This document shows positions 47,310 through 51,417 of a stretch of 64,000 nt of DNA, piece after piece. Each line of letters opens with the position of its first letter. Position 1 is the stretch's first letter. A model generated the notes under the pieces. It was not told the DNA's origin and ran no database searches. It saw nothing but the letters and a program-made list of their open reading frames with translations. The stretch is from Granulosicoccus sp. Its GTDB lineage: Bacteria > Pseudomonadota > Gammaproteobacteria > Granulosicoccales > Granulosicoccaceae. The stretch lies in assembly GCA_020627685.1 (NCBI GenBank), contig JAHDGK010000002.1, positions 34,215-98,214 of the forward strand, given 5' to 3'. The translations under genes were made by a program, and so were the position numbers.

Positions 47310-47828
47310 TTAATGCTTTTTGGGCGCAATTACCATAACCATTTGCCGCCCCTCCAATTTTGGGAACTGCTCTACAGTGCCCAATTCGGATAAATCCTCT
47401 TCTACGCGCTTGAGAAGTTTGGCTCCCAGTTCACGATGGGCCATTTCCCGACCGCGGAATCGCAGCGTGATTTTGGTCTTGTCACCGTTCTCCAGGAATT
47501 TGGTGAGGCTTTTCAACTTCACCTGATAATCGCCATCTTCCGTACCAGGGCGGAATTTTATTTCCTTCAGCTGAGCGGTTTTTTGTTTTTTACGACCCGC
47601 ATTCTGCTTTTTGTTAGCTTCGAACTTGAAGCGACCGTGGTCCATGATTTTACAAACAGGCGGGGAAACATTCGGAGAAATTTCCACCAGGTCCAAGTTT
47701 GCTTCACGGGCTGTTTCCAGCGCTTTTTCTAACGGCACGACGCCTATCTGTTCACCTTCGGCAGAAATCAGCCGTACATCAGGGACATCGATCTCGTCGT
47801 TTTTCCGGTTTACCTTTTTAGCAGAAAT
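47310..47828 (-). CDS. infC: Translation initiation factor IF-3, AUU start
   Basis: A 172-residue IF-3. The obvious open frame begins only at a GTG (47736-47738), which removes 30 residues of the N-terminal domain. Reading upstream in frame leads to ATT at 47826-47828, followed by [20 protein letters not shown], the normal IF-3 N-terminus. GGAGG lies 8 bases before the ATT, within the thrS 3' end, and the ATT is 3 bases after the thrS stop. E. coli infC also uses AUU, which lets IF-3 repress its own translation. The C-terminal domain ([33 protein letters not shown]) binds the 30S platform. Confidence 0.95.
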
Positions 47829-47831
47829 ACT

Positions 47832-49769
47832 TCAGCCCTCCTGCGCGGCTGTGTTCACAGCTCGGCCACGATTAGTGACCTCTTTATTAAGCATCAAATT
47901 CAGTTCTTCCAAAGTTAAAACACCAAGGTCTTCCCCTGTTCGAGTTCGAACAGCTACCGACCGATTTTCTAATTCCCTACCTCCTACTACTAGAAGATAA
48001 GGTACACGTTGCAAGGTCCACTCACGAATCTTGAAACCGATTTTCTCGTTCCTGAGATCAGTCTGCACACGTAACCCGCTATTCTGCAACACTTCTGCCA
48101 CTTCTTCAACGAACTCTGATTGCTTGTCTGTGATATTCAAAACCACAGCCTGAACCGGAGCCAGCCACAATGGCAGTTTTCCTTCAAAATTTTCTATTAG
48201 AATACCGATAAATCGCTCAAATGAGCCCAAAATGGCTCGATGGAGCATGACTGGAACCTGTTTTTCACCTTTTTCGTCCACGTAGCTGGCATCCAGACGT
48301 CCCGGCATGGAGAAATCGACCTGCATAGTGCCGCACTGCCATACCCGACCAATACAGTCTTTGAGTGAAAATTCGATCTTGGGGCCATAAAAAGCGCCTT
48401 CGCCCGGCAATTCTTCCCAAGGCAGGCCCTTCGCGTCAAGTGCGTCTGCGAGTGCTTTTTCAGATTTATCCCAAGCCTCATCACTCCCCACCCGGCTAGG
48501 TGGTCTTGTAGAAAGCCTGTAAATGATGTCTGTGAAGCCGAAATCCTCATAAACCGTATGCAGAAAATCGATGAAATTGCTGACTTCAGTCTGAATCTGG
48601 TCTTCTGTACAGAACACATGACCGTCGTCTTGTGTAAAGGCACGGACACGCATAATGCCGTGCAAGGCACCGGACATTTCGTTTCGGTGACACGAACCAA
48701 ACTCTGCCAAACGCAGCGGTAAGTCGCGGTAACTTTTCAAACCTTGATTGAAAACTTGTACGTGACAGGGGCAATTCATGGGCTTGACTGCATATTGCCT
48801 GTCGTCTGTTTCAACCGTAAACATGCCGTCCGCAAACTTATCGGCGTGTCCGCTTCGTTGCCAGAGCGAGAAGTCCACAATTTGTGGCGTGCGAAGCTCT
48901 TGGTAGCCGTGACTGATTTGCTGCCGACGCATGTACTGCTCAATTGCCAGATAAATGGACCATCCTTTCGGATGCCAAAAAACCATGCCGGGAGCTTCAT
49001 CCTGGACGTGAAACAAATCTTGCTGCTTACCTATCCGGCGATGATCGCGCTTTTCCGCTTCAGCCAGATTGTGCAAATGAGTTTTTAGCTCTTTGGGATT
49101 TGCGAAAGCCGTTCCGTAGATTCGCTGCAACATGGCATTGTTTGAATCACCACGCCAATAAGCACCTGCCAGCTTCGTTAATTTAAACGCCTTGAGATGC
49201 CCGGTGCTGGGCACATGTGGACCACGACAGAGGTCAGTGAAATCGCCTTGTTCGTAAAGCGAAAGAGTTTCACCTGAAGGAATGCTTTCAATGATCTCGG
49301 CTTTGTAGTCCTCACCCAAGCCTTTGAAGTACTCAATGGCCGCATCACGGTCGATAGTTGATCGTTGAATGGCAATGTTTTGCTCGGCAAGCTCCTTCAT
49401 TCTGACTTCAATCGTCGTCAAGTCCTCTGGTGTAAACGAGCGCTCATAATCGAAATCGTAGTAAAAACCGTCATCAATGACGGGGCCGATCGACACTTGT
49501 GCCGATGGGAATAATTGTTTGACCGCCTGCGCAAGTAAGTGAGCTGTACTGTGCCGGAGTAAAGGTAGAGCCTCGTCGCTTTTGTTGGTGACAACCGCAA
49601 GAGAGGCATCAGCGGTAATGGCGTGGCTTGAGTCGACAAGCTCGCCGTTAACGATTCCGGCCAGAGTGGCTTTTGCAAGGCCAGGACCTATATCGGCTGC
49701 GACATCCATGACGGATACAGCTTCCGGGTATTGACGAGTACTCCCGTCAGGCAAACTAATAATTGGCAT
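47832..49769 (-). CDS. thrS: Threonyl-tRNA synthetase
   Basis: A 645-residue class II synthetase (E. coli 642). Order: TGS domain (1-65; [20 protein letters not shown]), the editing domain with [17 protein letters not shown], the catalytic core with [14 protein letters not shown] and [14 protein letters not shown], and the C-terminal anticodon-binding domain ([20 protein letters not shown]). It charges tRNA-Thr and clears Ser-tRNA-Thr. The leader holds two tandem hairpins with CGU loops that look like its translational operator. infC follows 3 bases after its stop and takes its ribosome site from the end of thrS. Confidence 0.98.
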
Positions 49770-49783
49770 ATTTGATCTCAGTG

Positions 49784-49804
49784 GTGACCCCTACGAAAGG
49801 CCAC
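49784..49804 (-). promoter_or_regulatory. thrS leader hairpin 1 (start-proximal), tRNA-Thr anticodon-arm mimic
   Basis: On the minus strand a 7-bp stem (GTGGCCT/GGGTCAC, with G-U and U-G pairs) closes a 7-base loop TTCGTAG. Read as an anticodon loop it has U33 and CGU at 34-36, the tRNA-Thr(CGU) anticodon, with A37. It ends 14 bases before the thrS ATG, so bound ThrRS would block the ribosome site. Confidence 0.75.
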
Positions 49805-49821
49805 GTAATGTTGTTTCAGTG

Positions 49822-49842
49822 GTGACCCTCACGAAAGGCCAC
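49822..49842 (-). promoter_or_regulatory. thrS leader hairpin 2 (distal), tRNA-Thr anticodon-arm mimic
   Basis: Same 7-bp stem as hairpin 1, with the 7-base loop TTCGTGA: again U33 and CGU at 34-36. It lies 17 bases further from the gene than hairpin 1. In E. coli the thrS operator likewise has two anticodon-like arms joined by a single-stranded link. Confidence 0.72.
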
Positions 49843-49881
49843 ATGGATCGAAAATTAATAAGCATTCATTGTAGAACATTG

Positions 49882-49923: not shown

Positions 49924-51417
<1,494 letters not shown>

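Follow-up and report, generated by a model that had tools for sequence, protein, structure and literature searches.

Comparative evidence for a compact doubled variant of the Escherichia coli thrS operator in the thrS leader of Granulosicoccus

The thrS operator is the textbook example of an mRNA that copies a tRNA, and its mechanism was worked out in E. coli (PMC7373986, PMC9976931, PMC3858243, PMC6542539). In yeast, AspRS and HisRS also bind an anticodon-like element in their own mRNAs (PMC7373986, PMC6542539); these are eukaryotic cases with other synthetases and no related sequence, and they have only the principle in common with the locus described here. Outside E. coli, no description of a thrS operator was found in Rfam or in the literature open to searching. 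The 64,000-nt stretch of Granulosicoccus DNA analyzed here (the window) carries two near-identical hairpins directly upstream of thrS, and the question is whether they form an operator of this kind. On sequence and comparative grounds, we assign a probability of approximately 0.93 to the reading that the hairpin pair serves, within the 5′ leader of the thrS mRNA, as a translational operator for ThrRS.

Structure of the thrS leader

The thrS gene (47832..49769, minus strand) encodes a threonine--tRNA ligase of 645 aa (TIGR00418, 726 bits), the presumed repressor as well as the regulated gene. Directly 5′ of it, on the same strand, are the two 27-base hairpin copies, at 49816-49842 and 49778-49804. 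The distal copy reads GTGGCC-TTTCGTGAG-GGTCAC-CACTGA (49842 to 49816) and the proximal copy reads GTGGCC-TTTCGTAGG-GGTCAC-CACTGA (49804 to 49778), with a start-to-start distance of 38 bases. Each arm proper (distal, 49822..49842; proximal, 49784..49804) has six pairs and a U-G closing pair, so that two of its seven pairs are wobbles, and encloses a 7-base loop with CGU at the anticodon position (TTCGTGA in the distal arm, TTCGTAG in the proximal arm). Both arms are followed by the tail CACTGA (49816..49821 and 49778..49783). The linker between the arms (CACTGAAACAACATTAC) is not U-rich; it spans 17 bases between the stems (49805..49821), the first six being the distal tail.

Between the last base of the proximal stem (49784) and the start codon of thrS, whose A is at 49769, lie 14 bases, and the sequence running from the proximal tail to the start codon is GATCAAAT-ATG. 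The loops, the 38-base spacing and the distance to the ATG had all been given correctly in the original prediction, as re-reading of the minus strand confirmed. A weak, putative Shine-Dalgarno-like TGAGA (49776..49780, minus strand) abuts the proximal tail, and GGAG occurs at the same place in five related leaders (L004-L008). Farther upstream, TACAAT (49868..49873, minus strand) may be a −10 element, CTACAAT or CTACACT being visible by eye in several relatives; if so, the leader is probably approximately 90 nt long.

Two features of the neighboring genes were also observed. A tRNA-Val(GAC) gene (49924-50000, plus strand) adjoins the thrS leader divergently, and in other genera and families (e.g., L027, L030, L036, L047, and L048) a tRNA that appears to be the same one precedes thrS in the orientation of the gene; its presence in both strand arrangements suggests that the neighbor was retained while its direction switched. 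Downstream, the probable start codon of infC (IF3) is an AUU (47826-47828, minus strand) that follows GGAGGG, in frame and 30 codons upstream of the listed GTG. The E. coli infC also starts at AUU.

The arms are confined to this site. A 24-base degenerate pattern allowing up to three mismatches matched only the two arm sites in the 64 kb and had no match in 100 shuffles, none being expected by chance. Across the whole 4.9-Mb genome, a covariance model likewise returned only the two arms (E = 6e-8 and 1.5e-6); the next-best site had E = 4.5 and does not count as a third match. No Rfam family was found for the leader, either for the window at the gathering score or for its own leader and the E. 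coli leader at E up to 5. A T-box leader was considered and rejected: there was no match to a T-box family in Rfam, and the leader carries no site resembling a terminator.

Relationship to the E. coli operator

The E. coli thrS leader contains GTGATC-TTTCGTGTG-GGTCAC-CACTGC, 21 bases before the ATG, which by its place and sequence is domain 2 of the thrS operator. Model R1, built without E. coli, recovered this element at 25.9 bits, compared with 43.4 bits for the proximal and 38.4 bits for the distal arm of the window. The window leader thus resembles the four-domain E. coli operator in several respects: its proximal arm is a homolog of domain 2, an arm adjoins the thrS ribosome-binding site, the loop carries the threonine anticodon letters GU (positions 35-36), and a second anticodon-like arm lies farther upstream. 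In contrast, the distal arm of the window is a second copy of domain 2, whereas the distal domain of E. coli is dissimilar to its domain 2, and a search of the 250 bases preceding E. coli thrS gave no second arm of the domain-2 kind. The short linker also differs from the U-rich single-stranded stretch of E. coli, and the whole window leader is probably only the approximately 90 nt estimated above. Because the distal copy and the linker, which are details of architecture and not the defining principle, depart from the E. coli example, we classify the element as a variant of the E. coli-type operator. The proposal that the leader is a compact design made from a doubled arm is thus borne out for the doubling of domain 2, but the two-arm layout itself is already that of E. 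coli.

The window ThrRS is also identical to that of E. coli at N575, R583, R589, E600, and R609, presumably residues of the anticodon domain, and its closest structure matches include the solved E. coli structures 1qf6 and 1kog, which we take to be the ThrRS complexes with tRNA and with the operator.

Distribution among relatives

The thrS gene was located in 87 of the 95 genomes searched. Two arms were present in all 24 readable leaders of the same genus (start-to-start distance 29-38 bases), including one (L024) in which the distal arm forms five of the six pairs; a 25th leader ends at a contig edge, with the proximal arm visible. A single arm is present in 18 leaders that come from other genera within the family (one of these leaders ends at 59 bases). 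Outside the family, three arms were found in G083 and two in G090, in Oceanospirillales bacterium XeTr1 (L145), and in L177, and a second, weaker arm was seen by eye in G082. The distance from the element to the start codon was 14-30 bases in nearly all leaders. Because every sampled member of the genus has two arms, the doubling must be at least as old as the genus. The near-perfect repeat had been attributed to duplication of one arm; the duplication is old, and the near-identity of the copies is no sign of a recent origin, since all sampled genus members are two-armed and several have unlike arms.

Of 370 genomes drawn from across the class, 144 matched at E ≤ 0.05 (location at thrS checked for part of them, with the G398 match apparently elsewhere), 123 of them at E < 1e-3. 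Approximately three fifths of the sampled class genomes had no arm match, and control of thrS by such arms is therefore not universal. Among 80 thrS loci from named records of other organisms, 38 had an arm directly 5′ of the gene (Marinobacter, Marinomonas, Halioglobus, Chromatocurvus, Zhongshania, Thiotrichaceae, and others); no arm was found at the Legionella, Methylococcales, and betaproteobacterial loci of this sample.

Matches away from thrS were also seen. Two strong ones, L221 1101-1127 (minus strand) in G082 and L223 1527-1553 (minus strand) in G398, are antisense to open frames and are probably due to chance; the former retains CGUA, a six-pair stem, and AACTGA. Coarse inspection of the off-thrS matches in other genomes (L221-L224 and L226-L230) placed several inside or antisense to open frames. 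Given these placements, and with chance alone expected to give approximately 18 matches at E ≤ 0.05 across the 370 genomes, we claim no ThrRS regulon.

Stem covariation and folding

Among 61 distinct arms, 17 cells were changed on both sides of the stem, compared with 1.6 in shuffles, and two-sided changes occurred in five of the six stem pairs. When the structure was slid along the sequence, the paired fraction fell to 18-63%. Since these arms had been selected for pairing, the test was repeated on 53 arms selected by loop and 3′ side only, with the 5′ strand unconstrained: 316 of 318 cells paired, and the shuffled maximum was 309. At the fourth stem pair, G-U was the commonest combination.

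Free energy gave a different picture of the window sequence. The minimum-free-energy fold predicted for the leader RNA alone is a duplex between the two arm copies (−24.3 kcal/mol vs. −17.7 kcal/mol for two hairpins), and the z values, for an arm folded singly or for the leader, ranged from −0.45 to −2.5. The duplex fold favors a model in which the copies pair into one long hairpin and a switch between the duplex and the two arms is itself the control, which we nevertheless consider improbable. A cross-arm duplex is possible for any two copies of one hairpin, and many relatives have a single arm. Where the two arms of a leader are unlike, local pairs are retained (356 of 360) over cross pairs (327 of 360), and for this reason the duplex was set aside. 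Local hairpins also form first during transcription. The two-hairpin reading therefore rests on comparative evidence and not on the free energy of the window sequence.

Loop and tail conservation

To be blind to the loop, elements were selected from the collected leaders only for a 6-bp stem, an interior of 9 bases, and CACTG directly after the hairpin (n = 98). In all 98, NGU occupies the anticodon position (CGU, 74; GGU, 11; UGU, 7; AGU, 6). An earlier impression that A never occurs at position 34 was overturned by the wider sample, AGU being present in Porticoccaceae, Thiotrichaceae, and others. GU at positions 35-36 is common to all threonine anticodons. Position 33, which is always U in real tRNA anticodon loops, was less constant in 79 arms (T, 46; G, 22; A, 6; C, 5); the U33 claimed for the window loops is present there but is not conserved.

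The tRNA-Thr genes of the same genome carry GGU and UGU anticodons (L073 and L077). Neither ARAGORN, applied to the tRNA loci, nor a pattern search turned up a tRNA-Thr(CGU) gene in this draft genome, and the mimic is thus apparently no exact copy of a resident anticodon. Although the window loops do read CGU, their description as mimics of tRNA-Thr(CGU) must be broadened: with NGU as the conserved letters and the matching gene not found, the data point to mimicry of threonine anticodons in general. The tRNA-Thr(CGU) pattern matched in two of 48 family genomes (drafts), G003 and G017, in whose leaders (L024 and L025) the distal arm has diverged and lacks the CACTG tail.

Two further explanations bear on these patterns. 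A transcription factor acting on the thrS promoter could bind the two arms as DNA sites, each an imperfect palindrome (GTGGCC-N9-GGTCAC); every arm is indeed near-palindromic at the DNA level, and the tandem spacing of approximately 3.5 helical turns is usual for regulators. We regard this as very unlikely. Conservation is highest in the spacer that separates the half-sites, G-U pairs, which a DNA palindrome would not favor, are among the stem changes, the distance to the start codon stays within 14-30 bases in nearly all leaders, the element has a homolog in E. coli that is a proven RNA operator, and the site does not recur in its own genome. Equally slight is the chance that these are ordinary leader hairpins acting on mRNA stability or ribosome access without ThrRS: such partner-free action is conceivable near a start codon, but it leaves unexplained why the GU of the anticodon position never varies, why the arms are restricted to thrS, and how they come to be homologous to E. 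coli domain 2.

The tail is conserved with the arm. In the 24 genus leaders, CACTG follows both arms, at 88-92% per base in the distal position and 88-100% in the proximal position, and it keeps with the arm while the arm-to-start distance varies from 14 to 30 bases. Because it moves with the arm, CACTG belongs to the element and not to the ribosome-binding site. The tail is also present behind the E. coli arm, and anticodon mimicry gives no account of it; a protein contact is one possibility.

Discussion

Conservation of the arms, covariation of their stems, the invariant loop GU, and homology to E. coli domain 2 support the ThrRS-operator reading, and the comparison with related genomes that had been proposed with the original prediction came out positive: both arms in every readable genus leader, two-sided changes in nearly every stem pair, and G35-U36 in every loop. 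The sequence evidence gives good support to the thrS element as real and as a variant of the operator of E. coli thrS in compact, doubled form, whereas binding of the arms by ThrRS and repression of thrS translation are inferred by analogy.

By that analogy, each hairpin would mimic the anticodon arm of tRNA-Thr, offering NGU (here CGU) in its loop, and free ThrRS, a dimer in E. coli, would bind the arms through its anticodon-binding domains, probably with one arm per subunit. As the proximal arm stands against the ribosome-binding site, bound ThrRS would block ribosome loading. tRNA-Thr would compete with the operator for ThrRS, and we propose that thrS translation may consequently follow the supply of tRNA.

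A more specific model is tentative, and we hold it somewhat less probable than its negation. Two equal arms with a period of 29-38 bases might form a minimal symmetric operator for the two subunits of one ThrRS dimer, the number of arms (one, two, or three across the class) might set the strength of repression, and CACTG might be an undescribed contact with ThrRS or the ribosome.

The present results extend the arm of the E. coli operator, with its strictly NGU loop, its covarying stem, and its CACTG tail, to approximately one third of the gammaproteobacterial genomes sampled. Since variants with one, two, and three arms occur naturally, it could be tested directly whether a pair of equal arms serves the two ThrRS subunits.
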